IMG/VR virus record: IMGVR_UViG_3300018476_000005
Location: 1 to 45,478 of that record
DNA: 45,478 bases
Source of the DNA: a virus
Direction: 5' to 3' (one strand)
Shown here piece after piece: positions 3,121 through 19,383 of this stretch. The first letter of the stretch is position 1. Every line of letters begins with the position of its first letter. Below the pieces are notes generated by a model. That model did not search any database. It was not told where the DNA came from and saw only the letters and a list, made by a program, of their open reading frames with translations. The position numbers and the translations under genes are program-made.

Positions 3121-3486
3121 CTACTTGCTCAGGCGCCACACGATTTCGTCCAGGTCATACTTGCCCTCAGCTACCCCGATCACTAGATCCAACACGGCAT
3201 CATCGGACAGATCCAGGCGTAGGCCGTTGATGTCGCAGAAGACCACCGTCGCGGCCCAGCCCAGCCGCTTGTTGCCGTCAATCAGACCGTGATTGCACAC
3301 CAGTGAGTGCAGCAGGGCCGCCGCCTTGTCGATCAGCGACGGGTAGGCATCCTCGTCGGCGTAGCTAGCCATCGGCCGGGCCAGCGCGGAGGCCAGCAGG
3401 CCGGCGTCACGGATGACTACACCACGGGGCCCCAGCACGTTGGAGGCGATGTGCATGAGCGCGGACATGTCCAGGAAAGTGGTCAC
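3121..3486 (-). CDS. doc: Death-on-curing (Doc/Fic) family toxin
   Basis: A 121-residue Fic-fold toxin. The signature motif is HGLIDGNKR at residues 66-74, close to the HxFxDGNKR of Doc toxins. The lysine in place of the second motif glycine of AMP-transferring Fic proteins marks it as Doc-type. Known Doc proteins phosphorylate elongation factor EF-Tu and stop translation. The length is normal for the family. The start overlaps the antitoxin stop as ATGA, the usual antitoxin-then-toxin order. In a prophage the pair could stabilise the prophage or act in abortive exclusion of other phages. Confidence 0.9.
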   Translation of the reverse strand: MTTFLDMSALMHIASNVLGPRGVVIRDAGLLASALARPMASYADEDAYPSLIDKAAALLHSLVCNHGLIDGNKRLGWAATVVFCDINGLRLDLSDDAVLDLVIGVAEGKYDLDEIVWRLSK

Positions 3487-3689
3487 TGGCCCGCCAGCTC
3501 ATCGAGGACAGCGCGGTAGCGGGTGTTGACGTAGCCGATCGCCGCGTCGATGCGGTCCTGGGTGCCCTGGCGTTGCAGGTACTCCTGAATCGCGTCCTCG
3601 ATCAGCGAGTGCGTGGAGCACCTGCGCGTCAAGGCCAGCGTCGCCAGGGATGCGGTCATGGTCTCGTCAAGTCTGAGTGTCATCGCCAT
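3483..3689 (-). CDS. Ribbon-helix-helix antitoxin for Doc
   Basis: A 68-residue protein whose N-terminus, MTLRLDETMTASLATLA, is a typical ribbon-helix-helix DNA-binding strand followed by a helix. The second helix is HSLIEDAIQEYLQRQ, and a C-terminal tail should wrap the toxin. ATG at 3689 or 3683. It precedes the Doc-like toxin with an ATGA overlap. The palindrome just upstream is the likely autoregulatory operator. Ribbon-helix-helix antitoxins are a common alternative to Phd for Doc-family toxins. Confidence 0.85.
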   Translation of the reverse strand: MAMTLRLDETMTASLATLALTRRCSTHSLIEDAIQEYLQRQGTQDRIDAAIGYVNTRYRAVLDELAGQ

Positions 3690-3697
3690 GACCCGAT

Positions 3698-3714
3698 GGT
3701 ATCACTGTGATACC
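3698..3714 (-). promoter_or_regulatory. Palindromic operator of the toxin-antitoxin pair
   Basis: GGTATCAC and GTGATACC flank a single central base, giving a perfect 17-base dyad only 9 bases before the antitoxin ATG. On the minus strand a TTGCAA (3732-3737) lies about 18 bases before GTATCA, so the dyad would cover the -10 region. Binding of the antitoxin here would repress the operon, as is usual for toxin-antitoxin modules. Confidence 0.65.
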
Positions 3715-3974
3715 AAGGTCGCCATCCTCTTTTGCAAGTGCCAAGAATGGGATAGAATGGAATGAGCGGTGAATTGACCCGCGTCATTCCCCATCTCGAA
3801 CGCAAAGCGCGGAACGCGCATTGAGCAGTGCAAATACCGGAGCTTGAATGGCGGAAAATCCGCCATCAGCTGCCTCGGGCGCTTGCGCCTCCCGCGATAT
3901 GCCCCTACTGGGGCATTTCGGACACCCCTGTCTGTCAAGTGCAAGGGGCCATCCGGTCATTGTCATCTAGCCGG
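3715..3974. other. Intergenic control region with hairpins, possible small RNA
   Basis: No convincing gene was found between the antitoxin and the early promoters. The plus strand has a TAGAAT (3753-3758) with TTGCAA 15 bases upstream. It then has a perfect 8-bp hairpin, ATGGCGGA/TCCGCCAT with an AAA loop (3848-3866), and a 7-bp hairpin, ATGCCCC/GGGGCAT with loop TACT, followed by TTTCGG (3899-3920). This arrangement could be a short structured RNA ending in a terminator, or operators for the switch region. The spacing of the proposed promoter is short, so this is tentative. Confidence 0.35.
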
Positions 3975-4010
3975 TTGGCCGACGCGGGCTGACCTGTACC
4001 CGAGTATAGT
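3975..4010 (+). promoter_or_regulatory. Early promoter copy 1 (TTGGCCGAC box and TATAGT)
   Basis: TTGGCCGAC at 3975-3983, 21 bases, then a -10 hexamer TATAGT at 4005-4010 within CGAGTATAGTT. The same arrangement occurs at 4067, 5297 and 7535, always just before rightward early genes. The box sits at about -43 to -35, one step upstream of the usual -35 hexamer position, so it may be bound by a phage factor (activator or repressor). A GAGAGAGCGAGAA leader follows, as in copy 2. Confidence 0.7.
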
Positions 4011-4066
4011 TATAGATGTAAGGGAGAGAGCGAGAAAGCAAGGGGAAAGGCCGGAGAGTTACCCGA

Positions 4067-4103
4067 TCGGCCGACAGATACCCCGCGACAGATCGAGTAT
4101 AGT
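4067..4103 (+). promoter_or_regulatory. Early promoter copy 2
   Basis: TCGGCCGAC at 4067-4075, 22 bases, TATAGT at 4098-4103. The flanks CGAGTATAGTT and GAGAGAGCGAGAA are shared with copy 1 about 93 bases upstream, so the promoter and its leader appear to be a tandem duplication. It would drive the gene at 4185 and the operon after it. Confidence 0.7.
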
Positions 4104-4136
4104 TGACGATAGAGAGAGAGCGAGAATACCGATAAC

Positions 4137-4162
4137 GCTAGGCGATTACGTATCGCCATAGC
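4137..4162 (+). promoter_or_regulatory. Conserved leader hairpin, copy 1
   Basis: GCTAGGCGAT, loop TACGT, then ATCGCCATAGC form a 10-bp hairpin with one bulged A, in the 5' leader of the gene at 4185. A second copy at 4547-4572 is identical over 28 bases except for one change, which converts a G-C pair to a G-U pair in plus-strand RNA. That favours a role as RNA structure over a DNA operator. Confidence 0.55.
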
Positions 4163-4184
4163 CTCACATAAAGGGAGATACCCG

Positions 4185-4514
4185 ATGCTCGGGAAGAGTC
4201 TGCGCAAGGGCACGACACTGGGCGCGCATACGGTGACGGATGTCCGCCGTAACGGTGCGTTCAGCCTGGTCACGCTATCTAATGGTGCGACGTTCACGGT
4301 ACATAAGTACGGCTCCGTCCGGGACGCGGTGCGTACGTTGACGATGCCGGCAGGTCCGGTGCCGGTCCGACGCCAGTGGGCGCCCGAGATTCACAAGGTC
4401 CGCTTCTCGTCGCAAGAGTGGCGCGGTGAAACGGACGGCAAGCGCGGTGAACGGTTGATCGCACGTAACGGTTCGTGGGATCGCGGGACCATCATGACGG
4501 CGACTGGAAAGTAA
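4185..4514 (+). CDS. Hypothetical early protein
   Basis: A 109-residue protein, first gene of the rightward early region. ATG at 4185 preceded by AAAGGGAGAT. It starts MLGKSLRKGTTLGAHTV and contains a predicted beta-rich segment, FSLVTLSNGATFTVHKYGS, then a basic C-terminus with KVRFSSQEWRGETDGKRGER. No family was recognised. The position right behind the duplicated early promoter suggests a host-takeover or immediate-early role, which is inference only. Confidence 0.7.
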   Translation: MLGKSLRKGTTLGAHTVTDVRRNGAFSLVTLSNGATFTVHKYGSVRDAVRTLTMPAGPVPVRRQWAPEIHKVRFSSQEWRGETDGKRGERLIARNGSWDRGTIMTATGK

Positions 4515-4546
4515 GTCTCACGCGGGCACGGGGCAACACACACAAC

Positions 4547-4572
4547 GCTAGGTGATTACGTATCGCCATAGC
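4547..4572 (+). promoter_or_regulatory. Conserved leader hairpin, copy 2
   Basis: GCTAGGTGAT, loop TACGT, then ATCGCCATAGC: the same hairpin as at 4137-4162 with one C-to-T change that keeps pairing as G-U in RNA. It lies 70 bases before the gene at 4642 and 32 bases after the stop of the gene at 4185. It may set mRNA stability, processing or translation of the two flanking genes. Confidence 0.55.
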
Positions 4573-4641
4573 TACATATGACGAGACCCCCATGCTCGGG
4601 CCCCGGGCATGACAATCCGATACCTATACGGGAGGTACATC

Positions 4642-4818
4642 ATGCGGCTCTATCGCGTCACCCGCAACATAACCGACGGCCCTTATGCCGGGATCACAGT
4701 AACGCGCGACGAACACTGGTTCCCCGCGTACGTACCCCGTGTCGGGGAGCGTGTCGATTACGGAGTGTGGACCGGTGCCGGCAACGTGGTCCTTAACGTA
4801 ACGGAGGTGTGCAGCTAA
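4642..4818 (+). CDS. Small hypothetical early protein
   Basis: A 58-residue protein. ATG at 4642 with a strong GGAGG at 4631-4635. It starts MRLYRVTRNITDGPYAGITV and continues with short strands typical of a small beta-barrel (HWFPAYVPRVGERVDYG, NVVLNVTEVCS). The stop overlaps the next start as TAATG. No function recognised. Confidence 0.65.
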   Translation: MRLYRVTRNITDGPYAGITVTRDEHWFPAYVPRVGERVDYGVWTGAGNVVLNVTEVCS

Positions 4819-5057
4819 TGTACAACGACGCCGATATCGAGCAGTGGGAAATGGATCAGGTCGGCCGCGCTGTCGCGGCGGCACACCGCGCGGGTCGGTG
4901 CACGCACGGCTCGGCCGTGGGCTACTCCGTCAAGCGGTACTACCCCGAGCAGGAAGGTTTGCGCCCGGGCCAGTCCCGGTGCCGGTCAGGTTGCAAGGCG
5001 GTTTTCGATAGCGACGAGGCATGGCACGCGGCGATGAACGAAGCAATCGGTTACTGA
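4818..5057 (+). CDS. Small cysteine/histidine early protein
   Basis: A 79-residue protein beginning with a helical acidic stretch (DADIEQWEMDQVGRAVAAA) and then a Cys/His module. The module is CTHGSAVGYS, a linker with PGQSRCRSGC, and a C-terminal helix DSDEAWHAAMNEA. The CxH and CxxxC pairs could bind a metal. Similar small proteins occur in actinobacterial phages, but no activity is known to me. Coupled to the previous gene by TAATG. Confidence 0.65.
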   Translation: MYNDADIEQWEMDQVGRAVAAAHRAGRCTHGSAVGYSVKRYYPEQEGLRPGQSRCRSGCKAVFDSDEAWHAAMNEAIGY

Positions 5058-5091
5058 ATCAACTACCCCTCACAAGGAAAGGCGGTGCGTG

Positions 5092-5292
5092 ATGTCCGAC
5101 AGTCCGCTAATTGATCGGGTCGGAACGCTAGGGCATTTCCGTCAGGAGAGCCTGATCCGGCTGTTACTGAATCACGCCGACGGGAAGATGCGACGCAAGG
5201 TGATGGAGGAGCAGCCGTTGACGTACGCGCACCTTTACCCGGGCGCGCGCGACACGGTGATTGAGGTGATCACCAGCGCGTTGGAAGGTTAG
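5092..5292 (+). CDS. Small hypothetical early protein
   Basis: A 66-residue mainly helical protein (MSDSPLIDRVGTLGHF, then SLIRLLLNHADGKMRRKVMEE). ATG at 5092; an in-frame GTG lies one codon earlier. The upstream leader has the CCCCTCACAAGGAAAGG sequence seen before several other genes. The stop is directly followed by early promoter copy 3. No function recognised. Confidence 0.6.
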   Translation: MSDSPLIDRVGTLGHFRQESLIRLLLNHADGKMRRKVMEEQPLTYAHLYPGARDTVIEVITSALEG

Positions 5293-5296
5293 CCGA

Positions 5297-5333
5297 TTGG
5301 CCGACATCGGGTCCAACGGTCGGCCGGTATAGT
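5297..5333 (+). promoter_or_regulatory. Early promoter copy 3
   Basis: TTGGCCGAC at 5297-5305, 22 bases, TATAGT at 5328-5333, with a second CGGCCGG just upstream of the -10. It lies between the stop at 5292 and the DUF932 gene at 5388 and should give that gene its own transcript, which the hairpin at 6403-6454 could end. The leader carries CCTCAC, GTAA and GGGAGAT, like the leader of the gene at 4185. Confidence 0.7.
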
Positions 5334-5387
5334 TGAACTAGCAGCAAGGAAACGAAGTAACTTACCCCTCACGTAAGGGAGATTCAA

Positions 5388-6401
5388 ATGTCACGCGAAA
5401 CGATGGAATGGCTTAACACGAATACCCGCATCGGGTTCACCGATCGGCTGGGCAACGCCTGGCACCAGCGTCTCGGTAGCAGTAACCATTTCCCTGGCGC
5501 GGTGCCGCTCGGGGAGGTCGAATCCCTGTTCGCTTGGGATGCGTTGTCGGCCCCGGTGTATGTCGGGTCGCCGGACGGGATGTCCCTGCCCACGGTGGTG
5601 GAGGGACGTCAGGCAATTGTCCGGTCGGACACGGGCGCGGTGCTCGGGATCTTCACCGATGGCTACGAGGTGCACCAGTACCGCGATTGGCTGCTTACTC
5701 AGGTCGGCAACATTCTCGACGACAGCTTGCAGATCGGGTCGGCGGGTCTGTTGCGCAATGGTGCTCAGGCTTGGGTGTCGGTTGAGGTGCCGGAGTCGAT
5801 CACCACACCGGAGGGTGAAGTCTTCCGGCCGAATCTCCTGGCTTGTACGTCACACGATGGCAGTCTGGCCACCACGTTCAAGCGGGTGGTTACGCGGGTG
5901 GTGTGTGACAACACGATGGCGGCGGGTCTGGGCGAGGAAGGTCAACAGGTCAAGATCAAGCACTCCCGCTATAGCGGTCTGCGCATCGCCGAGGCACGAC
6001 ACGCGCTGGCCATGATCCACACCATTGCCGAGGACTACGCGGCGGAGTGTGCGAAGTTGTGCCGGATCGACGTCAGCGACAAGGCGTGGTCCTACTTCCT
6101 CAACGCCCACGCGCCGCTTGAGGTGAAGGGTGCAGAGAAGACGGGCGCCGCGCGGACGATCGCGCTCAATGAGCGGGAGAACCTGACGCAACTGTGGAAC
6201 GCCGACCCGCGTGTCGCGCCGTGGCGGGGTACCGCGTGGGGCGTGCTGCAAGCGGTGAACACGTTCACTCACCACATGTCGACGGTGAAGAACGCGCACC
6301 GACCTGAGCGCAACATGACGCGGGCCATTACGGGCGGCGTCGACAAGCTGGACCGTGGCACGGTCGCCACGTTGAACAAGGTTCTGGCGACGATCGCCTG
6401 A
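5388..6401 (+). CDS. DUF932 / phage-plasmid-like protein
   Basis: A 337-residue protein of the DUF932 (TIGR03299, phage/plasmid-like) family. It shows the family pattern of an N-terminal ETMEWLNTNTRIGFTDRLG, a beta-rich core (TGAVLGIFTDGYEVHQYRDW, EVFRPNLLACTSHDGSLATT), CDNTMAAGL, and the C-terminal helical RGTAWGVLQAVNTFTHHMST with an RAI motif. Members are widespread on plasmids and phages, often in large amounts and near replication or recombination genes; the biochemical role is unknown. ATG at 5388 follows GGGAGAT. It has its own promoter and a strong hairpin after it. Confidence 0.85.
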   Translation: MSRETMEWLNTNTRIGFTDRLGNAWHQRLGSSNHFPGAVPLGEVESLFAWDALSAPVYVGSPDGMSLPTVVEGRQAIVRSDTGAVLGIFTDGYEVHQYRDWLLTQVGNILDDSLQIGSAGLLRNGAQAWVSVEVPESITTPEGEVFRPNLLACTSHDGSLATTFKRVVTRVVCDNTMAAGLGEEGQQVKIKHSRYSGLRIAEARHALAMIHTIAEDYAAECAKLCRIDVSDKAWSYFLNAHAPLEVKGAEKTGAARTIALNERENLTQLWNADPRVAPWRGTAWGVLQAVNTFTHHMSTVKNAHRPERNMTRAITGGVDKLDRGTVATLNKVLATIA

Positions 6402-6402
6402 C

Positions 6403-6454
6403 GGGGTAGGCGGGGAGACCTGACATGGCTTAGATGCCAGGTCTCCCCTACCCC
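6403..6454 (+). terminator. Strong hairpin after the DUF932 gene
   Basis: GGGGAGACCTG pairs with CAGGTCTCCCC, extended across a 3-base bulge by GGGGTA/TACCCC, giving a 17-bp stem with a 15-base loop right after the stop. No U tract follows, so it may be a partial terminator or an mRNA 3'-end stabiliser rather than a classical intrinsic terminator. Confidence 0.55.
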
Positions 6455-6490
6455 GAGGAGCGTACACAAACACAAACGAGAGGCAGAGAG

Positions 6491-6703
6491 ATGTACTTCC
6501 GAATGTTCGTAGACAGTAGCGATGCGATCTTGACGGACGACACGACGAAGGAGATGTGCCGGCTGCTGGGTTTCACGGCCGGGATGATCGAACAGGGTTG
6601 GATGAACGGAGACCTGAGGGACGGCAACGGCAACAGGATCGGCCGTTGGTACCTGGAGACAAGCAAGGCCGCGCACGACGCAAGCGGTGATGGCGATGTC
6701 TGA
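6491..6703 (+). CDS. Small hypothetical early protein
   Basis: A 70-residue protein with MYFRMFVDSSDAILTDDT, an acidic and mainly helical middle (KEMCRLLGFTAGMIEQGW) and DGNGNRIGRWYLE. ATG at 6491 after AGAGGCAGAGAG. Its end overlaps the start of the Ku gene, so the two are probably translationally coupled, which makes it a candidate partner or regulator of Ku. No family recognised. Confidence 0.6.
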   Translation: MYFRMFVDSSDAILTDDTTKEMCRLLGFTAGMIEQGWMNGDLRDGNGNRIGRWYLETSKAAHDASGDGDV

Positions 6704-7526
6704 GAAGGTAGCGCCGGTCGCTAGCCGGTCGATGTGGAAGGGCTCGGTTAGTTTCGGTCTGGTCAGTGTCGGCGTGAGCGTGTACGCGGCGACTCAGGAC
6801 AACGACGTGAGCTTCAAGCAGATCCACGTTCACGACGACGGCGGTGTCGCGCTGGTGAAGCAGAAGCGGGTGTGCTCCGGGTGCGACACGGAGGTGGCTT
6901 TCGCTGACATCGGCAAGGGCGTCGACATGGGCGACCGGATCCTGCCGCTAAGCAAGGAGGATCTTGCTGGTGTGGCTTTGGAGTCGATGCGGACGATAGC
7001 GGTGCAGGAGTTTGTACCGCTGGCATCGGTGGATCCGATCATGCATGAACGTACGTACTTCCTGGCGCCGCAGGATAAGACGCACAGTAAGGCGTATGCG
7101 CTGCTGCGGGATGCGTTGACGGACACGGGCCGCGCGGGTGTGGTGAAGGTGGCTTTGCGGCAACGTGAACAGGTCGGCCTGCTGCATGTTCGGCCTGACG
7201 GTTGCGGCGGCACAGTGCTGGCCCTGACGACGTTGCGGTGGGCCGATGAGGTGCGGCACGCCGCTATGCCGATTCTGTCGAAGCTGCCGGGGTCGGAGCC
7301 TGCCGAGCTGGCGATGGCGAAGATGCTGGTGGAAAGCCTGGCGGCCGAGGCGTTTGTCCCGGACGGGTATGAGGATGGCTACCGCCACGCGCTGCAAGCG
7401 GTGATCGATGCGAAGATGGCGGGCCAGTCTCCGGTGCCGGCCATGCCGACGGAGAGCAACGTGTTGGATCTCATGTCGGCGCTGCGGGCCAGTGTGGAGC
7501 GGGCGCAGCAGGAGCGTGCGGCATGA
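6690..7526 (+). CDS. ku: Ku-like DNA end-binding protein
   Basis: A 278-residue homologue of bacterial Ku, the ring-shaped homodimer that threads onto double-strand DNA ends in non-homologous end joining and recruits LigD. The N-terminus has the family block SMWKGSVSFGLVSVGVSVY, followed by ATQDNDVSFKQIH, a CSGC pair (RVCSGCDTEVAFADIGKG) and LPLSKEDL. Later come DPIMHERTYFLAP, KAYALLRDAL and RAGVVKVALRQREQ. The length is normal, and the C-terminus is short, without the long basic tail of some bacterial Ku proteins. Phage Ku proteins are known in mycobacteriophages Omega and Corndog, where they are linked to genome circularisation. Starts at 6687 (GTG), 6690 or 6696 are possible. It overlaps the previous gene. 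Confidence 0.93.
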   Translation: MAMSEKVAPVASRSMWKGSVSFGLVSVGVSVYAATQDNDVSFKQIHVHDDGGVALVKQKRVCSGCDTEVAFADIGKGVDMGDRILPLSKEDLAGVALESMRTIAVQEFVPLASVDPIMHERTYFLAPQDKTHSKAYALLRDALTDTGRAGVVKVALRQREQVGLLHVRPDGCGGTVLALTTLRWADEVRHAAMPILSKLPGSEPAELAMAKMLVESLAAEAFVPDGYEDGYRHALQAVIDAKMAGQSPVPAMPTESNVLDLMSALRASVERAQQERAA

Positions 7527-7534
7527 CCGACCGT

Positions 7535-7571
7535 TTGGCCGACGCGGCCACCAACAATCACTCGGTATAGT
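7535..7571 (+). promoter_or_regulatory. Early promoter copy 4
   Basis: TTGGCCGAC at 7535-7543, 22 bases, TATAGT at 7566-7571. It begins 8 bases after the Ku stop and starts the run of small genes from 7601. The predicted transcription start near 7578 lies after the first in-frame ATG (7574) of the next gene, which supports 7601 as the true start of that gene. Confidence 0.7.
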
Positions 7572-7600
7572 CAATGAGTCCACAAGGGAAGGGACAAGCA

Positions 7601-7882
7601 ATGAACATAGGGCGGCAGTTGCAGGTGCAACGCATGAACGAGAAAGCGGATCGGGCGGCGCGGCGGGCGGCGCTTGAGGAGCAGAACCGGGAGCTACTGA
7701 CGCTGATCGCGGAGGCGAGCAAGGCGTACAACGAAGCGCTGGCGGAGGCTGACGAACATCGGGGCCGGCGGGATGCGTTGATCCGTGAGGCGTTGCTGAC
7801 GCCGATCCCCCGGGCGGAGATTGCGGTGGCGGCGGATCTGTCAGAGATCCGGTTGTTCAAGATCCGACACGAGGGAGGGTGA
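7601..7882 (+). CDS. Coiled-coil protein with C-terminal HTH-like segment
   Basis: A 93-residue protein. Residues about 5-70 are a long charged helix likely to form a coiled coil (EKADRAARRAALEEQNREL, then NEALAEADEHRGRRDALIRE). The C-terminus IPRAEIAVAADLSEIRLFKI resembles the AEIAxAAGLSxxRxxxI helix-turn-helix segment used by small actinobacterial DNA-binding proteins. ATG at 7601 is preceded by AAGGGAAGGGA and lies after promoter copy 4. Probably a DNA-binding accessory or regulatory protein. Confidence 0.7.
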   Translation: MNIGRQLQVQRMNEKADRAARRAALEEQNRELLTLIAEASKAYNEALAEADEHRGRRDALIREALLTPIPRAEIAVAADLSEIRLFKIRHEGG

Positions 7883-7887
7883 GAGCG

Positions 7888-8097
7888 ATGCCTGACACGA
7901 GAGCAGTAGCCATGACACATATGGGTTGGGAGGCCAGGTGCGGCTGGTGCGGCGAGACTTTCATCCCTAGTGGCCCGGAGGACACGGTTCATCTGGTGTG
8001 TGAGAACGGAGAGGAGTGCGGAGGCGAGGCCAGCGACATCTTTGAATGGGTTCAGGTTCGGGACCACACAAACCAGAGAGGGGAAACCAATGTCTGA
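7888..8097 (+). CDS. Small zinc-ribbon protein
   Basis: A 69-residue protein with CGWC (ARCGWCGETFIPSGP) and a second cysteine pair, C-E-N-G-E-E-C, forming a probable zinc knuckle. ATG at 7888 after GAGGGTGAGAG; a GTG at 7879 is an alternative. It overlaps the next gene by 8 bases. Probably nucleic-acid or protein binding; function unknown. Confidence 0.6.
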   Translation: MPDTRAVAMTHMGWEARCGWCGETFIPSGPEDTVHLVCENGEECGGEASDIFEWVQVRDHTNQRGETNV

Positions 8098-8332
8098 CAA
8101 GAACGCCGAGAAGCAGGCTACTGCCTACGTCGATGGCTACCGGGACGGTTGGCAGGACGCCCGGGACGTATCCAGGTCCGACCGTTCCGAGCGACCGGAT
8201 AGCTACCCGTTCAGTGTCGCGTACAGCGAAGCGGTGGAGCGCTGCAACGAACAGGGGCACTGGGGGCCGCCCATATCACAGGCGTGGCGGGACTGGATGA
8301 AGCACGGCGAGATCAGGCAGGAGGAGCGATGA
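8090..8332 (+). CDS. Small hypothetical protein
   Basis: An 80-residue protein starting MSDKNAEKQATAYVDGYRDG with a QDARD segment and a tryptophan-rich end (GPPISQAWRDWMKHG). ATG at 8090 with AGAGGGGAAA upstream, overlapping the previous gene by 8 bases and the next as ATGA. Function unknown. Confidence 0.65.
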   Translation: MSDKNAEKQATAYVDGYRDGWQDARDVSRSDRSERPDSYPFSVAYSEAVERCNEQGHWGPPISQAWRDWMKHGEIRQEER

Positions 8333-8565
8333 GTAACGAAGGCAGCACGAAAGGCTGGGCGTATGAGCCGGCCGATCCGACGATGGGGCGTTACACCGGG
8401 GAGGTGTACCACGAAGACTGCGATGCATGGGACGAGGAGAACGGTTACCACGCCGGGGTTACCGAGACGCGCGACAAGGTTTCCTGCGACGGGTGCGGCG
8501 CGTTCTTCTACCAGCCTGAGCCTGACTACGAACTGATGGCCGAGATGAGCGGAAGGCGGTACTGA
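8329..8565 (+). CDS. Small cysteine-containing protein
   Basis: A 78-residue protein with VYHEDCDAWDEENGY and SCDGCGAFFYQPEP. The His/Cys and CxxC residues could bind zinc. ATG start overlaps the previous stop as ATGA, and CAGGAGG lies upstream. Function unknown. Confidence 0.65.
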   Translation: MSNEGSTKGWAYEPADPTMGRYTGEVYHEDCDAWDEENGYHAGVTETRDKVSCDGCGAFFYQPEPDYELMAEMSGRRY

Positions 8566-8566
8566 G

Positions 8567-8836
8567 ATGAGCCACAACCGGCAGGAGACGAAACGAGCCT
8601 TCAATCTAGTTAAAGGGGATGTCGTCGACCTAGAGGGGTTTGATGTAGGCGAAGCCAATTCTCAGATCGTGCAATTCGAGTACGTAACTGTTGACTCCGT
8701 CAACGGCGGCTGGGCTGATGGCATGGCAGCGCCGGGGCAGGTGGTTCTGTACTCCGCGCAATCCCTAGCCGAACCCGTGATCTTGCCCTCTGACGCGCTC
8801 ATTCCAATAGCCCGACGCGAGAACGACGGGACGTGA
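8567..8836 (+). CDS. Hypothetical protein
   Basis: An 89-residue protein with RAFNLVKGDVVDLEGFDVG followed by a hydrophobic beta pattern (IVQFEYVTVDSVNGGW, GQVVLYSAQSLAEPVILP). This suggests a small beta-barrel similar to KOW/SH3-like folds. It starts one base after the previous stop and ends in a GTGA overlap. Function unknown. Confidence 0.6.
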   Translation: MSHNRQETKRAFNLVKGDVVDLEGFDVGEANSQIVQFEYVTVDSVNGGWADGMAAPGQVVLYSAQSLAEPVILPSDALIPIARRENDGT

Positions 8837-8844
8837 CGCACGCG

Positions 8845-9087
8845 ATGAGTGAGCGACGGATGACTAGGGAGAACGCGCCCGCGCTGCCGTGGGTTGACAG
8901 TATCGAAGAGATCATCATCGACGGCACCGACATCGGGATCGTTGGCTCGGGTGATGGCGAGCCATGTCGGGCGGAGCGCCGTGCGATGTGGGAAGCGGTG
9001 CAGGCGAAGCTACGGGGCGCCAGGTACCTCGCCCATATCTCCGATGATGAGGATCAGCGCATCCTTAGAAAGCACGACGGACCATGA
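8845..9087 (+). CDS. Hypothetical protein
   Basis: An 80-residue acidic protein (ATG at 8845; a GTG at 8833 overlaps the previous stop and would add four residues). It contains LPWVDSIEEIIIDGTDIGIV and a helical RAERRAMWEAVQAKLRGARY. It ends overlapping the next ATG as ATGA. Function unknown. Confidence 0.55.
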   Translation: MSERRMTRENAPALPWVDSIEEIIIDGTDIGIVGSGDGEPCRAERRAMWEAVQAKLRGARYLAHISDDEDQRILRKHDGP

Positions 9088-9509
9088 GCAGCAACGTTCC
9101 GATCCGGGCGTGTGCGGTGTGCGCCAGGATCCTGGACCACGCTGACGGCGCAGGCTATATGCACATGATCAGCGACGGGCATGTGGTGGTGCCGGTGGTG
9201 CCGTCGGAGATTCGTACGGACTACCGTTGCGATTTCTGCACCGCGCCGCATCCAACCTGGGTGCTGCCGGCGGACAGTTTCAAGGTGGCGGGGATACCAG
9301 CGGGCAGCGATGGCGGGTGGTCGGCGTGCGAGGCGTGTGCCGACCTGTTGCGCGCCGATGACTGGGCAGGTCTGGTCAGGCGGGCGATCCGTGAGTACGC
9401 GGTGTGGGCGGGGCATCCGATGCTGGCCGAGTCCCGCATGTTTCTAGCCCAGACGTACCGCCGGCTGTCATCGAAGGTGTCGGGTCCGTTGGAACGGATC
9501 GCGCGGTGA
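9084..9509 (+). CDS. Zinc-finger protein with three CxxC pairs
   Basis: A 141-residue protein with CAVC at residues 10-13, CDFC at 49-52 and CEAC at about 82-85. The context YRCDFCTAPHPTWVLPADSF followed by SDGGWSACEACADLL resembles a family of small proteins common in actinobacteria and their phages, with no known activity. The C-terminal half is helical (ESRMFLAQTYRRLSSKV). Coupled to both neighbours by ATGA and GTGA overlaps. Confidence 0.7.
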   Translation: MSSNVPIRACAVCARILDHADGAGYMHMISDGHVVVPVVPSEIRTDYRCDFCTAPHPTWVLPADSFKVAGIPAGSDGGWSACEACADLLRADDWAGLVRRAIREYAVWAGHPMLAESRMFLAQTYRRLSSKVSGPLERIAR

Positions 9510-9847
9510 GCGGGCTGGCGCTGGTGCTGCCGCACCGGGAACCTTCGGGGGCGGAGTGCTGGGCGTCCGATTCGGCGGTGCCGTGGCCACCTCGTACGGA
9601 TCGGTGTCGGGAGTGTGGCGCGGCGGGTGCGCTGCGGCCGTTGCTGTCGGGCCGGGAGGCGGCGAAGGCGGCGGGGGTGACCTATACGACGTGGCGGGAT
9701 TTCGGGGTGGATCGTAAACGTCCGTCGCCGGATTTTGTTGGGGCTGACCGGCACCAGTTTTGGTTGCCGGAAACGATTGAGTGTTGGAATCTGCGTCGTC
9801 CGATGCAGAAGGAAACGATCAGGAGGATTTTGCGATGCATGGATTAG
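9506..9847 (+). CDS. Helix-turn-helix DNA-binding protein
   Basis: A 113-residue protein with a GTG start overlapping the previous stop (GTGA). It has a CRECG pair (zinc-ribbon half), then LLSGREAAKAAGVTYTTWRD with a following wing region (DFVGADRHQFWLPETIEC), which resembles MerR/excisionase-type winged HTH domains. Proteins of this shape act as excisionases or local regulators, so this is one of three candidates for the recombination directionality factor of the serine integrase. That assignment is speculative. Confidence 0.6.
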   Translation: MSGLALVLPHREPSGAECWASDSAVPWPPRTDRCRECGAAGALRPLLSGREAAKAAGVTYTTWRDFGVDRKRPSPDFVGADRHQFWLPETIECWNLRRPMQKETIRRILRCMD

Positions 9848-10041
9848 TGCAAATACTGGCAGCGCAGGCGGAGTCGATGGAACGCATGTACATGAGTTCC
9901 CGTGCTAATCAGGCGGCGTTGGATCGGTTGACGTTTCAAATGGAGGCGGTGATCAAGGTGTTGACGAGCATGGCGGACAACGACCGGATGTATTACCGCA
10001 ACACTGACCCGTCAGCCCGGCCTCACTTGAAGGCGGTGTAA
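9835..10041 (+). CDS. Small helical protein
   Basis: A 68-residue protein, ATG at 9835 with GGAGG upstream, overlapping the preceding gene by 13 bases. It is almost entirely helical with heptad-like hydrophobics (VQILAAQAESMERMYM, LTFQMEAVIKVLTSMADND), so it is probably a small coiled-coil dimer. Function unknown. Confidence 0.6.
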   Translation: MHGLVQILAAQAESMERMYMSSRANQAALDRLTFQMEAVIKVLTSMADNDRMYYRNTDPSARPHLKAV

Positions 10042-10044
10042 GTG

Positions 10045-10362
10045 ATGGCCCGGTTTGTTTGTAAGACGTGCGGTGGGCGGTCGCCGGCTGGTATCGGCTA
10101 CGTGGCGGCCCCCGGTCAGGGCAGGCTCCCGGCACCTGACCCGGATTGTCGCTCGCCGCATTTCCGTCGGTCGGGGTCGGCGAGCTGGGGTCTGGTGGCG
10201 TGGGACTATCAGGACGCGCGCAATGCCATCGACATCCCGGGGGCGACGTTTGCCACGTATGACGCCGCGCGGGCGGCGATGTGGGCGCTGGTTGGACCGT
10301 GGCGTGAGATCACCGATTGGGCGTTGGATGTCCTGCCGCCCGGGAAGACATCACCGCAGTGA
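10045..10362 (+). CDS. Small zinc-ribbon protein, last gene of early rightward run
   Basis: A 105-residue protein beginning MARFVCKTCGGRSPAG, a half zinc ribbon, with another cysteine in PDCRSPHFRRSGS, and a helical, tryptophan-rich C-terminus (RAAMWALVGPWREITDWALD). It ends inside the 3' end of the convergent HNH nuclease gene (12-base overlap), marking the meeting point of the two early operons. Function unknown. Confidence 0.65.
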   Translation: MARFVCKTCGGRSPAGIGYVAAPGQGRLPAPDPDCRSPHFRRSGSASWGLVAWDYQDARNAIDIPGATFATYDAARAAMWALVGPWREITDWALDVLPPGKTSPQ

Positions 10363-10707
10363 CCACGCCCCGGGTTGCAGTATCCCTGTCTGCTTCCCGT
10401 GGCAGGACCCGCACAGTGGGCGCATCCGATACCAGGCGTCGGGGTCGGGGACTCGTTGAGCGAGGAGCTGGCGGCGGGAGGTGGGCCAGTGGTCGGGGTG
10501 GGCGGCGAGGCGACCGCACAGCGCGCAGGTCGGGTGGGCGGTCAGGAACGGTAGCCGGATCCGTTTGGCCCAGTGCCGGTCGTAGCCTTGCGCGTCGGAG
10601 GTGGGGGCCCGCTGCCGGCAGGTGGCGCATTTGCCGCGTTGTTTGTTGTCGCCGGCCATGCCGCCGCATCCGGGGGTGGTGCATCGGCGGCGGGGTTGGT
10701 TGGGCAT
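10351..10707 (-). CDS. HNH endonuclease
   Basis: A 118-residue HNH nuclease. It has two zinc-binding cysteine pairs at the start (CTTPGC, CATC), then CALCGRLAAHPDHWP, where the DH is the HNH histidine, and the second zinc pair plus final histidine in RPLCGSCHGKQTG. Small HNH proteins of this type cut DNA with a divalent metal and in many siphoviruses assist terminase-dependent packaging. Here it is the last gene of the leftward early operon, far from the terminase genes. It overlaps the end of the rightward operon. Confidence 0.85.
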   Translation of the reverse strand: MPNQPRRRCTTPGCGGMAGDNKQRGKCATCRQRAPTSDAQGYDRHWAKRIRLPFLTAHPTCALCGRLAAHPDHWPTSRRQLLAQRVPDPDAWYRMRPLCGSCHGKQTGILQPGAWSLR

Positions 10708-10829
10708 AGCGCGCCGCCTTCGTCATCGATGACACATGGGCCAGCGCATATTTCGCATTCGATGCGCAGACCTGCATGTCGCCGGTCGTTTGGCACACTT
10801 CTCCTATTGGTTCGGATGGTAACTGTCAC
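10542..10829 (-). CDS. Possible small cysteine protein overlapping HNH gene
   Basis: A minus-strand frame whose GTG at 10829 overlaps the upstream stop (GTGA), with a second GTG at 10796 behind AGGAGA. Its first part encodes RIECEICAGPCVIDDEGGAL, a convincing Cys pair, but the rest runs for about 165 bases out of frame inside the HNH gene and is proline/alanine-rich. It may be a short genuine gene with a long overlap, or an N-terminal piece joined to HNH by frameshifting. Low confidence. Confidence 0.35.
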   Translation of the reverse strand: MTVTIRTNRRSVPNDRRHAGLRIECEICAGPCVIDDEGGALCPTNPAADAPPPDAAAWPATTNNAANAPPAGSGPPPPTRKATTGTGPNGSGYRS

Positions 10830-11182
10830 TTCGCATTTCTGCCACGGGTATGTGATATGAGTTCGTATATGTCACCCGCGCGGTACCACGGCCCTTTTCC
10901 CCATTGCGTGTAAACCGTCAGCCCCCGCCGCTTGACGACCTGTGTCACGCTGTTGACCTTTATGCAGAGTAGTTCCGCCGCTTGCGTGCGGGTGATCAGT
11001 TCGTCTTCGGCGTACGCCTGGGGATGTGGGGCTATCCACGCCTCACCGCATCGCACCATCCAACGGTCAACCTGCGCTGTGATTTCCGGGTCGGCCATGA
11101 GCGCAACGGCGCGGTACATTTCAGCGATCCGGCGCAGCTTGGCCGGCATCGAATCCCCGCGCCACGGCCAACGGTCGGTCAC
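10826..11182 (-). CDS. Helix-turn-helix protein
   Basis: A 118-residue protein using a GTG at 11182 that overlaps the upstream stop as GTGA. An N-terminal helical part (KLRRIAEMYRAVALM) is followed by ELITRTQAAELLCIKVNSVT and a wing (TVYTQWGKGPWYRAGDIYEL), the pattern of HTH_17/excisionase-like domains. It could regulate the early region or serve as recombination directionality factor; neither can be decided from sequence. Confidence 0.65.
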   Translation of the reverse strand: MTDRWPWRGDSMPAKLRRIAEMYRAVALMADPEITAQVDRWMVRCGEAWIAPHPQAYAEDELITRTQAAELLCIKVNSVTQVVKRRGLTVYTQWGKGPWYRAGDIYELISHTRGRNAK

Positions 11183-11388
11183 GGCTCCCCCGTGCCATAG
11201 AACTCGCCGTCCGCATAGAACATCGGCCCGTATCGCTCGATCCAATTCCGGGCGCAACGTTCGGTTGCCTCATTGAGCACGATTCCGTCGAGGTCGAGAT
11301 CAACGGCGACCTGCCTGACAGCACGCTGCTGAGCACGCTCGGACAGGTCATCGAAGTCGAGCAGCTTTGGCTCGAAGTCATCGGTCAT
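11179..11388 (-). CDS. Small hypothetical protein
   Basis: A 69-residue acidic protein starting MTDDFEPKLLDFDDLSERAQ with helical segments (QQRAVRQVAVDLDLDGIVLN) and an aromatic end (WIERYGPMFYADGEFYG). Overlaps its neighbours by GTGA and ATGA. Function unknown. Confidence 0.65.
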   Translation of the reverse strand: MTDDFEPKLLDFDDLSERAQQRAVRQVAVDLDLDGIVLNEATERCARNWIERYGPMFYADGEFYGTGEP

Positions 11389-11831
11389 GACTTCCGCTCA
11401 TCCCCCCACCGGCAAGCCCACCCGTCAGCAGCGTACGGGGATCCGAACTGATGCTCTTTCGTGCACAACAGCTTGAGCGTTTCCCCTTCCCGCACGGTGG
11501 CGCACCGACTGTCATCGCAGCGGACCATCAGCCCCGTGTCGTAGGTGACAACGACATACGAGGACGCGGCCAGGAAGCGCGTGTCCACCACCTTCACGGT
11601 CCCGGTAGCAGGTTGCAGTCGGTGGTAGTCACCCATGAAAGGCCAGTATCCGAACCCCATGAAGGCCGCGAATATCAGGGTGCCGATGCCGATAATCACT
11701 CCCACATCCGCCAGGTCATCGGCCGTGATGAAGCACGCGACGACGGCGATTACGCCGGCAAGCATCAGGAGTATGGCAAGGGGCAGGCCGATAGTCATAG
11801 TGGGCAGCCATGCCCCGTTGTGGTCAATCAC
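11385..11831 (-). CDS. Small membrane protein
   Basis: A 148-residue protein with two predicted membrane helices near residues 13-35 (GLPLAILLMLAGVIAVVACF) and 43-62 (VGVIIGIGTLIFAAFMGFG). A C-terminal soluble beta-rich domain follows (TGTVKVVDTRFLAASSYVVV) with three or four cysteines (CDDSRCATVREGETLKLLC). GTG start overlapping the upstream gene by 8 bases. It belongs to a run of membrane proteins in this early operon. Function unknown; exclusion of other phages is one possibility. Confidence 0.7.
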   Translation of the reverse strand: MIDHNGAWLPTMTIGLPLAILLMLAGVIAVVACFITADDLADVGVIIGIGTLIFAAFMGFGYWPFMGDYHRLQPATGTVKVVDTRFLAASSYVVVTYDTGLMVRCDDSRCATVREGETLKLLCTKEHQFGSPYAADGWACRWGDERKS

Positions 11832-12003
11832 GGCGACGGAACCCCCGGAACGCCTCGCCTATCGCCGCACGCACATCATCGAGGTACCGCTCCCCGGCCG
11901 GTGTCAGGTAGCCGTCGTCATCAGACAACGCCGGGTCGGAGTCGAGGGTCTGCTCCACCTGTACGCACAACTCTTCGACCATGTCGTCGTAGCGTTGTCT
12001 CAT
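11824..12003 (-). CDS. Small acidic protein
   Basis: A 59-residue protein starting MRQRYDDMVEELCVQVEQTL, with DGYLTPAGERYLDDVRAAI and a basic end. Its YLTPAGERYLDD block is similar to VTPRGERHLRLL in the gene at 12230-12451, which suggests a shared ancestry. Start and stop overlap the neighbours (ATGA upstream, 8 bases downstream). Function unknown. Confidence 0.65.
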   Translation of the reverse strand: MRQRYDDMVEELCVQVEQTLDSDPALSDDDGYLTPAGERYLDDVRAAIGEAFRGFRRRD

Positions 12004-12233
12004 TTTTTAATCCACCCTTCGGCAACCGCAATAGCGTTCTCCAGATGCCTGCCAATCAGCCGGGCCAGGGCCGGGGTTAGTTCCACACCTTCTGCCTCGT
12101 CTTCGTTGAATCCGACATACAAGAAGATGGCGCCAGGGTCGGGGCGGGTGGCGCTGCGCCCGTAGTAGGCGTTGATACGCACATAGGCATCACCGATGTG
12201 TATGACGGTGTTCGACTGGTGTTCAGTTGTCAT
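12000..12233 (-). CDS. Small hypothetical protein
   Basis: A 77-residue protein with a beta-rich start (NTVIHIGDAYVRINAYYG), AIFLYVGFNEDEAEGVELTP and a C-terminal helix (ALARLIGRHLENAIAVAEG). Overlaps both neighbours by 4 bases. Function unknown. Confidence 0.65.
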   Translation of the reverse strand: MTTEHQSNTVIHIGDAYVRINAYYGRSATRPDPGAIFLYVGFNEDEAEGVELTPALARLIGRHLENAIAVAEGWIKK

Positions 12234-12451
12234 CCCAGTTCTCCTCGTTGTTCGCGCAGGTATCCCCGCAGCCGCACAGTTAGCTGCGCAAGTAGCAGCC
12301 GCAAGTGCCGCTCCCCTCGCGGTGTGACCGCGCCCGTCTTCTCATCCCACAACAGGTCGTTGTTCAGCAGGATCTTGCCGATCTGTTCGTCTACCTCTTC
12401 GGCGATGAGAGCGAAGCGGTGCGCGTCGTCGGGGGCGAGAGGGTTGGTCAT
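12230..12451 (-). CDS. Small helical protein
   Basis: A 73-residue protein starting MTNPLAPDDAHRFALIAEEV, followed by NDLLWDEKTGAVTPRGERHL and a basic helix (LTVRLRGYLREQRGEL). The ATG at 12451 overlaps the upstream stop as ATGA, which fixes the start. Related in its TP-GER block to the 59-residue protein encoded downstream. Function unknown. Confidence 0.6.
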   Translation of the reverse strand: MTNPLAPDDAHRFALIAEEVDEQIGKILLNNDLLWDEKTGAVTPRGERHLRLLLAQLTVRLRGYLREQRGELG

Positions 12452-12633
12452 TGGCGCTCCCCTAGCTTGCGGTGCCATTCGTCGTTGCTTGCTCTCATGC
12501 TGCCGATGACGTCAACCAGGATGGTGAAGTCTTCCCGCAGCCGGTACTGCCCTACGGCGAGGTACACCACTGCCCCGGCCATGCCGGCGAACGCGACCAG
12601 TGCACCGATGATGGCGACGTCAGCGATTCCCAT
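12448..12633 (-). CDS. Small single-pass membrane protein
   Basis: A 61-residue protein with one membrane helix (IADVAIIGALVAFAGMAGAV, residues about 4-27) and a charged cytoplasmic helix (RLREDFTILVDVIGSMRAS). Overlaps the following gene. Function unknown. Confidence 0.65.
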   Translation of the reverse strand: MGIADVAIIGALVAFAGMAGAVVYLAVGQYRLREDFTILVDVIGSMRASNDEWHRKLGERQ

Positions 12634-13021
12634 GCCGGTCCCTGGCGGTGATGGTGAGCAGCCGGGCGGCGATGGTCCGTTTACGTGGGTCCATGTCCTG
12701 CCAGTCCCGCCGTGCCTCCTGCAACGATTCGGTGAAACGGTCGGCGAACGTGGGCGAATCGGCTCGCAGCGTCCGCAGCGCTCGCCCTTGCGCGTGTTGT
12801 TCCCTGCCGGCGACGTCGCGGGCTTGGTTCACGTCATCGATGAGACGGTCAATCTGTTTAGTGCGTTGCCAACTGCCGTAGACAACGACAACGAGCAGGA
12901 CAACGATCATGGTCGCGGTGAACCAGGAACGGTAGACGGCGAGCAGGTACCCCAGCGCGACGGCCGCGAGGTAACTGATCGTCTCTGCCGCCAGCAGCCC
13001 GGTCGCCAGTCCCCGCCTCAC
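12620..13021 (-). CDS. Membrane protein with cytoplasmic helical domain
   Basis: A 133-residue protein. The GTG at 13021 overlaps the upstream stop as GTGA and places two membrane helices right after the N-terminus (ETISYLAAVALGYLLAVY and TATMIVVLLVVVVYG). A long charged helical tail follows (RTKQIDRLIDDVNQARDVAG, FTESLQEARRDWQDMDP). The open frame upstream of 13021 lies inside another gene and should not be used. Two-helix membrane anchor with cytosolic coiled coil; function unknown. Confidence 0.65.
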   Translation of the reverse strand: MRRGLATGLLAAETISYLAAVALGYLLAVYRSWFTATMIVVLLVVVVYGSWQRTKQIDRLIDDVNQARDVAGREQHAQGRALRTLRADSPTFADRFTESLQEARRDWQDMDPRKRTIAARLLTITARDRHGNR

Positions 13022-13251
13022 TGGTGGATCTTCTCTTCGGTGATGATCCCTTGAGCTAGTCGGAAGGCGGCGGTCACCGTCGCCAGGAAAGCCATGATCA
13101 TGACGTATGAGTACCCGAGCCAGTGAGCCAAGGCAGCCAGGAAGCCGTCGTCGCGCATGTTCCACGTCTGGCCGGCCAGCCAGCTAGTCAAGAGCATCAC
13201 CGGGAAGGCGACCGCTACGGCCAGCCAGAATTGTTTGGTGTTCGCTTTCAT
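13018..13251 (-). CDS. Small membrane protein
   Basis: A 77-residue protein with two membrane helices (FWLAVAVAFPVMLLTSWLAG and YSYVMIMAFLATVTAAFRLA), and short charged ends. It is the fourth membrane protein within 1.9 kb of the leftward early operon. Coupled by GTGA to the next gene, which is also a membrane protein, so they may form a complex. Function unknown. Confidence 0.65.
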   Translation of the reverse strand: MKANTKQFWLAVAVAFPVMLLTSWLAGQTWNMRDDGFLAALAHWLGYSYVMIMAFLATVTAAFRLAQGIITEEKIHQ

Positions 13252-13258
13252 TCGTCGC

Positions 13259-13528
13259 TCACCGCTCCGCCCTGGGCCCGTTGTAACCGCACTGGCTATA
13301 AGTGCCGGGGACTTGTGACACGCCGGCGGTGGGTAGTCCCTGCTCGTCGTGTCCGGCCTGCCATTCTTGGATCTTGTCGGATCTTGTCCCTAACGGTGGA
13401 TGGTCGGGCATCGTCGGGCATCCGGACTCGGTGAGCATGTGGGTTGCGGCTGCCCAGTTTTCCGCACACCCGCCCCGGTACTTGCGTCCTTCGATCTGGA
13501 CGTAGACGTGGTAATGATGCTCGTTCAT
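13259..13528 (-). CDS. Small hypothetical protein
   Basis: An 89-residue protein starting MNEHHYHVYVQIEGRKYRGG, with two cysteines and LGTRSDKIQEWQAGHDEQGL. A His-rich first strand and Tyr pattern suggest a small alpha/beta domain. ATG at 13528 follows a GAGTGAGGGG leader. Function unknown. Confidence 0.6.
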   Translation of the reverse strand: MNEHHYHVYVQIEGRKYRGGCAENWAAATHMLTESGCPTMPDHPPLGTRSDKIQEWQAGHDEQGLPTAGVSQVPGTYSQCGYNGPRAER

Positions 13529-13532
13529 CCCC

Positions 13533-13919
13533 TCACTCTTTCCACAGCACGAGATCCCGTCTCTTCTTGCGCGGTTTGCATGAGGGTTTCCACCTGCTGC
13601 CGGTCAGGCGCCAGGTACAGCGGCAGGGCTCCATGTCGTGGATGGTGGTGGGGTAGCCGCAGCGGCATACGGCGTGCAGCAGCATCCGCACGGCGATGGC
13701 GGTGGCGGCGTCAACAGGAGTGGACAACCCCGACACCTCGATGATCTTGTTGCGGGTCCATGTCACCTCAACGTGCCACCGATCAACGTCAGCAGAAGAC
13801 GACCACGACCACAGCTTGAAGTGTCGGGCCCCAGCCCGTTCCGCCAGGTCGATCGCGCCGGCGATGGTGCCTCGCGCGAACACGTCGGTAGCGCTGTGGG
13901 GTTCCACCTCAACATCCAC
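13533..13919 (-). CDS. Hypothetical protein with cysteine cluster
   Basis: A 128-residue protein. The N-terminal half has an alpha/beta pattern (VFARGTIAGAIDLAERAGAR, DRWHVEVTWTRNKIIEVSG). The C-terminal half carries a cysteine cluster (CRCGYPTTIHDMEPCRC), then a basic tail (KPSCKPRKKRRDLVLWKE). The cysteines suggest a zinc site for nucleic-acid binding. Function unknown. Confidence 0.6.
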   Translation of the reverse strand: MDVEVEPHSATDVFARGTIAGAIDLAERAGARHFKLWSWSSSADVDRWHVEVTWTRNKIIEVSGLSTPVDAATAIAVRMLLHAVCRCGYPTTIHDMEPCRCTWRLTGSRWKPSCKPRKKRRDLVLWKE

Positions 13920-13969
13920 GCCGAAACGCTAGCAGCGCCCCCAACCACCCCGGCGCCAACCGGGCGGGG

Positions 13970-14683
13970 TCACGCGAACGTGTCAACTCCGAGCTGCGCG
14001 AGGATGATCTTCGGGTAGTCGCCGTGCGGCAGCCGGTGCCGGCAGGCGTGGCAGTACACCCACTCCTCCTCAGCCCGTCGCCGCAGCGCAGCGTCCCCGC
14101 ACTGCGGACACGGACCCGGCATGTGGGTCACCGGGTCGGTCAAGTCAAGGATCGCCATAGCGCGGCGGTGGCAGCGCCGCAACTGTTCAATCGCATCGGC
14201 CCCATCGCGTTGCACAATCGCCTCATCAGGTCCGTCGAAGAAACCGTGCGTCAAAGGGGTCGCCGCGAGCAGGTCCAAACGGTTGGCGATAAAGCGCACA
14301 CATGAATCAACCGCCCACCCTGGCCGCACCTGTGTGTAATCGACGTCGGACAATTCCGCGCGGTCGCGTACCACCTGTTCCCAGCAGGTCAGGGCCCAGT
14401 AGATGGAACGGCACGCGCTTTCACAAATCTCATCGAGAGGAACAAATGACAATACGTCGGCGGGTCGGATCCCGGCCGTTTGTGCGCGGCGTCGCCCGGC
14501 GCGGGTGCGGGCTAGGATGGACAGGTCAACGTAGTCGCGGGGCAGGGCCCGCACGTCAGCCCGGATCATCTCGGTACACGGATCGCACAGCCCCGGCGTC
14601 TCACCTACATATGCCCTTAAAGGCCCCTCATTTGCCCGCTGCCGCGAGTAGCACCCATCTCCTAGGGCACATGACCTAATCAT
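13970..14683 (-). CDS. Zinc-binding protein, possible DNA-binding
   Basis: A 237-residue protein with an N-terminal cysteine module (CALGDGCYSR, GLCDPCTEMI). A helical middle with RRRAQTAGIRPADVLSFVP and GPDEAIVQRDGADAIEQLRR follows, then a C-terminal zinc ribbon (GPCPQCGDAALRRR, YCHACRHRLPHGDYP). Two separate zinc modules flanking a helical core resemble proteins seen in actinophage replication operons, with no defined activity. It lies just downstream of the endonuclease VII region, so a role in DNA metabolism or early gene control is likely. Confidence 0.65.
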   Translation of the reverse strand: MIRSCALGDGCYSRQRANEGPLRAYVGETPGLCDPCTEMIRADVRALPRDYVDLSILARTRAGRRRAQTAGIRPADVLSFVPLDEICESACRSIYWALTCWEQVVRDRAELSDVDYTQVRPGWAVDSCVRFIANRLDLLAATPLTHGFFDGPDEAIVQRDGADAIEQLRRCHRRAMAILDLTDPVTHMPGPCPQCGDAALRRRAEEEWVYCHACRHRLPHGDYPKIILAQLGVDTFA

Positions 14684-15005
14684 GTTTCTGTCCCCTTACG
14701 TTGGCTCTCAGGGCGCCAACGAGTCTGGCCTCTTTGTGGTCGTGGCACAGCAGCGTCACGAACCCCTGGTCGGTGCGTTTCCACCGCACGGTGCGCATCC
14801 GGGGCGCGTGCAGCCAACCCCGCAACTGGCATTCCCGCTGGCAGTCGTCGCAGAACCGGGGCAGTTTCGGCCGGTAGTGCACGTAGCTGACCGGCTTGTC
14901 GTCGGGCTTCACCCCGGTCGGCAGGGCCAGCCGCTCCGGCGCGGGCTCCGGGAACAGGGCGAGCTGCTCGCGGGCGAAGCCTTTCTTCGGCCGTTGCCTG
15001 GTCAC
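14676..15005 (-). CDS. Hypothetical cysteine protein of replication operon
   Basis: A 109-residue basic protein (KKGFAREQLALFPEPAPERL) with a cysteine cluster, FCDDCQRECQLRGWLH, and a final LLCHDHKEARLVGAL that could complete a zinc site. It overlaps endonuclease VII at its start and the 237-residue gene at its end. The association with endonuclease VII suggests a DNA-related role; the function is unknown. Confidence 0.65.
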   Translation of the reverse strand: MTRQRPKKGFAREQLALFPEPAPERLALPTGVKPDDKPVSYVHYRPKLPRFCDDCQRECQLRGWLHAPRMRTVRWKRTDQGFVTLLCHDHKEARLVGALRANVRGQKHD

Positions 15006-19021: not shown

Positions 19022-19383
19022 GCGACAACCTCGGTCGCGGCGTACATGGTGCCGTTTTTGAACTCTTCCAGTGATTCGACGGGGATGCGCAGCGGCGAGT
19101 TGTGGTCGCCGTATTTGTTGGCTTTGAGTTTCCCGTCGCGGATGAGTTGCCGGACGGTTTCGGCGGAGACGCCGAGTTGGCGGGCGACTTGGCCGGTGGA
19201 CAGCAGTCCGGTGCCGGCGTTGCGCTCGTAGCCGTTCTGCAGTGCGGCGAGGCTTTCGTCGGAGACGATCATGCCTCGGACGCCGGGTTTGCGGGTGGCT
19301 TCAAGTCGGCCGGCTGCGATGTGCCTATACACCGACTCAGGGCTTACCTGCAAAGATGCGGCACTTTCACGAATGGACGCCAT
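19018..19383 (-). CDS. Tandem helix-turn-helix protein, first gene of leftward early operon
   Basis: A 121-residue protein with two related HTH units: SIRESAASLQVSPESVYRHI near the N-terminus and LLSTGQVARQLGVSAETVRQ in the C-terminal half. Each is followed by a short wing (GRLEATRKPGVRG, GKLKANKYGDHNSP), the pattern of excisionase/MerR-like HTH_17 domains. ATG at 19383 has GGGGGAAAG upstream. As the first gene of the recombination/replication operon it probably regulates it, or serves as recombination directionality factor. The longer open frame to 19593 lacks coding character and would cover the promoter region. Confidence 0.75.
   Translation of the reverse strand: MASIRESAASLQVSPESVYRHIAAGRLEATRKPGVRGMIVSDESLAALQNGYERNAGTGLLSTGQVARQLGVSAETVRQLIRDGKLKANKYGDHNSPLRIPVESLEEFKNGTMYAATEVVA

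Follow-up and report, generated by a model that had tools for sequence, protein, structure and literature searches.

The window analysed here is the whole of the virus record IMGVR_UViG_3300018476_000005 from IMG/VR, which comprises 45,478 bases, is ~13% non-coding and harbours 81 predicted genes. It carries four copies, P1 to P4, of a bipartite unit that resembles a promoter. Each unit consists of a conserved box, CCGNTYGGCCGAC, followed by 21-22 bases and the hexamer TATAGT. All four lie on the + strand in the same orientation, at 3971-4010, 4063-4103, 5293-5333 and 7531-7571. A first-pass annotation had reported four copies at 3975, 4067, 5297 and 7535 with spacers of 21-22 bases, and all were found again. 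These positions are the starts of 9-base boxes, which read TCGGCCGAC in P2, and TATAGT follows at 4005, 4098, 5328 and 7566 after spacers of 21, 22, 22 and 22 bases. The conserved box extends over 13 bases, and the last two bases of the spacer are always RG, so that the downstream element reads RGTATAGT. The elements of the units are:

3971..3983, + strand: 13-base upstream box of P1, CCGGTTGGCCGAC
4005..4010, + strand: -10 hexamer TATAGT of P1, predicted start ~4017
4063..4075, + strand: upstream box of P2, CCGATCGGCCGAC
4098..4103, + strand: -10 hexamer TATAGT of P2, predicted start ~4110
5293..5305, + strand: upstream box of P3, CCGATTGGCCGAC, beginning right 3' of the stop codon of the gene at 5092-5292
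5328..5333, + strand: -10 hexamer TATAGT of P3, predicted start ~5340, before the DUF932 gene
7531..7543, + strand: upstream box of P4, CCGTTTGGCCGAC, five bases past the end of the Ku gene
7566..7571, + strand: -10 hexamer TATAGT of P4, predicted start ~7578, 23 bases 5' of the gene at 7601

Both TYGGCCGAC and TATAGT occur four times in the window, counting both strands, and every occurrence lies inside one of the four units. In first-order Markov sequences built from the window, 2.0 copies of the box alone and 2.1 copies of TATAGT alone are expected per sequence, and the bipartite unit was present in none of 300 such sequences. A chance origin of the units is ruled out by these exclusive counts and by the absence of the unit from the Markov sequences. 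A weight-matrix scan of both strands revealed no fifth unit; the four copies score 31-33 bits and the best unrelated site 16. The statement of the first-pass annotation that no other operon has the motif is therefore borne out, since the window holds no further box, TATAGT or weight-matrix unit. None of the four units overlaps a predicted gene.

Little is common to the copies upstream of the 13-base box or downstream of the -10 hexamer. Among the four spacers identity is 35% if the alignment is anchored at the -10 and 30% if it is anchored at the box; base composition alone would give 27%. The box, the -10 hexamer and the distance between them were held while the spacer drifted, which argues for a joint function of a constrained pair rather than for recent copying. 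It is conceivable that the four units are recent duplicates without a common regulator, and duplication is seen close by, in the 52-base leader that adjoins P2. Recent copies would however share their spacer, while the spacer is near random and the box and -10 were kept, which makes this explanation hardly credible.

If the start site is set so that the -10 hexamer spans -12 to -7, the upstream box of 13 bases occupies -46 to -34 in P1 and -47 to -35 in P2-P4. On this assumed start site its centre falls at -40 (P1) or -41 (P2-P4), which would be the position of a class II activator. The position of -43 to -35 given earlier for the box applies to P2-P4 but not to P1, whose 9-base box spans -42 to -34. 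A recognisable -35 hexamer is missing: the best matches to TTGACA at spacers of 15-20 bases amount to 3, 3, 2 and 3 of 6 positions in P1-P4, and a TTGACA-like -35 at 16-19 bases, as in ordinary sigma-A promoters, was found in none of the four. An extended -10 (TGn before the hexamer) is likewise lacking in 4/4. About the box centre, the dyad extends no further than GGCC and the one or two pairs next to it. The sequence AGTATAGT, present in P1 (4003-4010) and P2 (4096-4103), gives TATACT as well when read on the minus strand, and these two promoters may fire both ways, towards the toxin-antitoxin genes described below.

The box might itself be a -35 element, used by a modified polymerase, by a sigma factor of the phage or by a long-spacer regulator of the MerR type. 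TTGGCC resembles a -35 in its TTG, and MerR-like helix-turn-helix (HTH) proteins are encoded at 10826-11149 and 19018-19272. Yet TTGGCC lies 24-25 bases from TATAGT, beyond the 19-20 bases of MerR promoters, and neither a sigma factor gene nor a known repressor was recognised among the proteins searched (50 protein readings against Pfam and 30 against PHROGs, drawn from the 81 predicted genes and some alternative readings, with a minority of the virion genes covered). The MerR-type long spacer was rejected: MerR proteins bind within the spacer, and here this part shows no conservation. Taken together, a -35 function of the box is considered very improbable.

The features of the units are best accommodated by four -10-only promoters that would be read by the main RNA polymerase of the host (sigma-A/HrdB-type), with a protein on the 13-base box (~-47 to -35) standing in for the -35 hexamer and its contact, and thereby activating transcription. 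We give this reading about an even chance. The bound protein, probably phage-encoded, would touch sigma region 4 or the polymerase, either as a class II activator or as a MotA-like co-activator, and would turn on the rightward block of small genes and the DUF932 gene as one set. The first-pass annotation had proposed a regulon bound by one phage regulator, or by an activator overlapping the -35 region. The fixed place and orientation of the box and the want of a usable -35 agree with this, but no candidate protein could be tied to the box. Sequence alone cannot separate an activator from a repressor; the activator is favoured. A more specific proposal is advanced tentatively: a phage activator of a class not described before would recognise, at all four promoters, an asymmetric, GC-rich 13-base box in the place of the -35. 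The genome is probably complete, yet genes for Mor, MotA, CII, WhiB or a sigma factor were not recognised among the protein readings searched.

Several observations weigh against activation by a box-bound phage protein. No Mor, WhiB, MotA or CII match was obtained in the Pfam and PHROGs readings. The HTH_17 protein encoded at 19018-19272 gave two weak matches to sigma region 4, below the Pfam cut-off. A good -10 by itself is enough for some actinobacterial promoters, so that an activator is not strictly required. Furthermore, the box is carried by none of the relatives examined, all of which are distant (DUF932 protein identity at most 64%). HTH-like candidates are encoded at 1916-2275, 7601-7882, 9404-9847 (matching the DNA-binding family phrog_597), 10826-11149 and 19018-19272, none of them tied to the box.

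Repeated phage promoters are already known, and several systems invite comparison. The MotA-dependent middle promoters of phage T4 have an ordinary -10 and, in place of the -35, a short box specific to the phage, as would be the case here. The MotA box is AT-rich with its centre near -30, unlike the present box, and a MotA match is lacking. In the middle promoter Pm of phage Mu, a 16-base element centred at -43.5 and bound by the phage activator Mor replaces the -35 (PMC4390567). Pm resembles P1-P4 in having a -10 without a -35; the box centre of -40 to -41, on the assumed start site, comes close to that of the Mor element. It differs in being a single promoter in Mu, against four here, and in its Mor element, which is described there as having two 5-base inverted repeats, whereas the box here is largely asymmetric. 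Moreover, no protein of the Mor/C family was recognised in the 50 Pfam readings. Membership of the Mu Pm family is not claimed, as the box lacks such repeats and a Mor protein was not recognised.

Early-gene regulation in actinobacterial phages is poorly defined, as stated for mycobacteriophage promoters in PMC11373665. According to the same paper, the ESAS set of cluster K phages (Adephagia) consists of several near-identical intergenic sigma-A-like promoters before rightward genes, with an extra conserved element, much as in the window (PMC11373665). In Adephagia, however, the -35 and -10 are spaced by 17-18 bases and a 15-17 base imperfect inverted repeat is present (PMC11373665), whereas P1-P4 lack a -35 and have their box at -47 to -35, with no such repeat in the dyad about the box centre or among the inverted pairs listed. 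Cluster A phages (L5, TipsytheTRex) offer another parallel: their operators and stoperators are asymmetric 13-base sites oriented with transcription (PMC9283540), as are 4/4 boxes here. More than 20 such sites are described there, many outside promoters (PMC9283540), against four exact sites in the window, all in promoters. The sequence of the cluster A sites also differs from the box. The L5 consensus has one match in the window, at 21717, with two mismatches.

The cluster A parallel leads to the main rival explanation, in which the box is an operator and a repressor made in the lysogen, bound at -47 to -35, bars the polymerase from four otherwise constitutive promoters. The genes and elements around the units are:

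4185..4514, + strand: gene after P1 and P2, 109 amino acids, without Pfam or PHROGs match
5388..6401, + strand: DUF932 gene after P3 (PF06067, E=1.9e-43)
6412..6448, + strand: strong hairpin 3' of the DUF932 gene, lacking a T run (6400-6460: -37.9 kcal/mol, z -5.5)
6690..7526, + strand: phage-encoded Ku gene upstream of P4 (PF02735, E=9.9e-43)
7601..7882, + strand: gene after P4, 93 amino acids, with a weak match to the phage HTH family phrog_686 (E=0.008)

The tandem P1 and P2 occupy the gap that follows, on the right, two leftward genes coding for a Doc-like toxin and a ribbon-helix-helix (RHH) antitoxin (3121-3689). All four units lie before rightward genes, and the leaders have plausible lengths. 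The earlier statement that they lie directly before early rightward genes does not fit the first unit, which is followed by the second and is 180 bases from the next predicted gene start. Position and gene content would point to early timing. The hairpin at 6412-6448 is a probable tail-less terminator, which would bound the P3 unit.

An operator function would suit a genome that is probably temperate (a serine integrase is encoded at 23917-25554). The asymmetric, oriented 13-base sites bound by L5-type repressors, in promoters and elsewhere, are a precedent (PMC9283540), and repression via an inverted repeat has been proposed for the repeated promoters of Adephagia (PMC11373665). In addition, the P2 core TCGGCCGA is a perfect dyad. 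On the other hand, the dyad beyond GGCC is weak in three of the four copies, and an operator needs neither a fixed distance to the -10 nor a missing -35. The box was not found before the leftward replication genes (exonuclease and RecT, ~19.3 kb) or the serine integrase, which an immunity repressor should presumably control as well, nor is it near any gene able to regulate itself, and no repressor gene was recognised. An operator is regarded as possible but doubtful.

A 17-base palindrome, GGTATCACTGTGATACC, at 3698-3714 lies next to the RHH antitoxin gene, at its start, and is probably the operator of the toxin-antitoxin operon itself. The RHH antitoxin was considered as binder of the box and is unlikely, as this near-adjacent palindrome of its own differs from the box. 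A 24-base element, CTAGGNGATTACGTATCGCCATAG, occurs in two leaders, at 4138-4161 next to P2 and at 4548-4571. Both RNAs fold to the same hairpin, and one change between them (C to U opposite G) keeps the pairing. The repeat spans 52 bases at 79% identity, and ATGCTCGGG follows both copies; the second copy of ATGCTCGGG opens a frame of six codons only. The 52-base repeat could be a duplicated leader or a leader peptide. The leader repeat has 0 exact copies in IMG/VR.

The possibility that the phage borrows the site of a host transcription factor for its early genes has in its favour that these genes must be read before phage proteins exist, and that the box is short and GC-rich, as many actinobacterial sites are. 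GGCCGAC-N21/22-GTATAGT and a reversed control were searched in 786 actinobacterial genomes, of which 390 belong to the family of a Saccharothrix (the genome of locus L134) and 396 were taken from the phylum. The unit was present in 3/390 genomes, against 3 for the control, and in 2/396, against 6, and never twice per genome. A general host promoter class is rejected for the genomes searched, where the unit stays at control level. This also makes a borrowed host factor unlikely.

The box and its layout are absent from the relatives examined. In IMG/VR, DUF932 relatives reach at most 64% protein identity; among terminase relatives 55-76% is usual, and a single one has 38%. In named genomes the closest terminase relatives reach up to 61%, and most of these belong to Pseudonocardiales and Nocardiopsis. 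Searches with the gene at 4185, the exonuclease and Ku, and with DUF932 in genome contigs, yielded no relatives. Across 170 DUF932 or terminase loci (L084-L253; 2.94 Mb, some overlapping, phiC31 and REQ1 included) no TYGGCCGAC-like box was found with TANNNT at 18-25 bases. Loci L076-L083 gave a single GGCCGAC with TACATT 26 bases further on, taken as chance, and no true unit, and 0/20 whole relative records contained the unit. Conservation in relatives, which the first-pass annotation had named as a test of its proposal, failed to appear, and this counts against the idea. The negative is weighed lightly, because no close relative was available and phages are mosaic. Exact TTGGCCGAC-N20-23-TATAGT occurred in 71 IMG/VR stretches, once in each, only 3/71 having a GC fraction of at least 0.55; these were taken as chance. 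No earlier report of the box or layout was found among the matches listed from the open-access literature searched, and the listed papers combining TTGGCCGAC, phage and promoter appear unrelated by their titles and the opening of their abstracts.

Other phages appear to carry matched promoter sets of their own. In the repeat search 8-base seeds were not significant by themselves, random sequences also giving 3-5 copies, and reliance was placed on 9-base seeds and aligned flanks. One related locus (L251) has at least eight TATACT promoters (3846-14746) whose -35 elements, of TTGC or TTGT type, lie at the ordinary distance of 17-18 bases; one of the promoters stands directly before the DUF932 gene of L251, and the set shares start-side sequence like GATAGTACACACA. 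Another (L223) has three promoters, with TATAGT or TACAGT, and a long common upstream sequence, and Microbacterium phage Shotgun (L256) has four copies around CTATAGGTGTAAG. The published ESAS set of Adephagia (PMC11373665) was seen again on a minus-strand reading of L257, while in phiC31 no promoter family was found. L251, L223 and L256, together with the four units here, suggest that sets of matched early promoters, with a sequence of their own in each phage, are common in actinophages. With four clean copies whose spacers have diverged, material for a search for the bound protein is already at hand, and the system perhaps offers an orthogonal activator-promoter pair for GC-rich bacteria.

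Bases 1-123 and 45356-45478 are identical, and a terminal direct repeat of 123 bases makes it probable that the record is a circular assembly and a complete genome of ~45.36 kb. The virus is one of actinobacteria. The repeated elements of Shotgun, four in number and intergenic, are at 7068, 11960, 15952 and 19238, around CTATAGGTGTAAGC, with TTAG-containing sequence upstream. In Gordonia phage Guey18 (L255, 14230-18408) an inverted-repeat leader and a AGAGAGGAAAG-like ribosome-site sequence were noticed by eye before nearly every small gene. Finally, an RNA ligase-like gene (phrog_14301) lies at 43205-43792 of the window.

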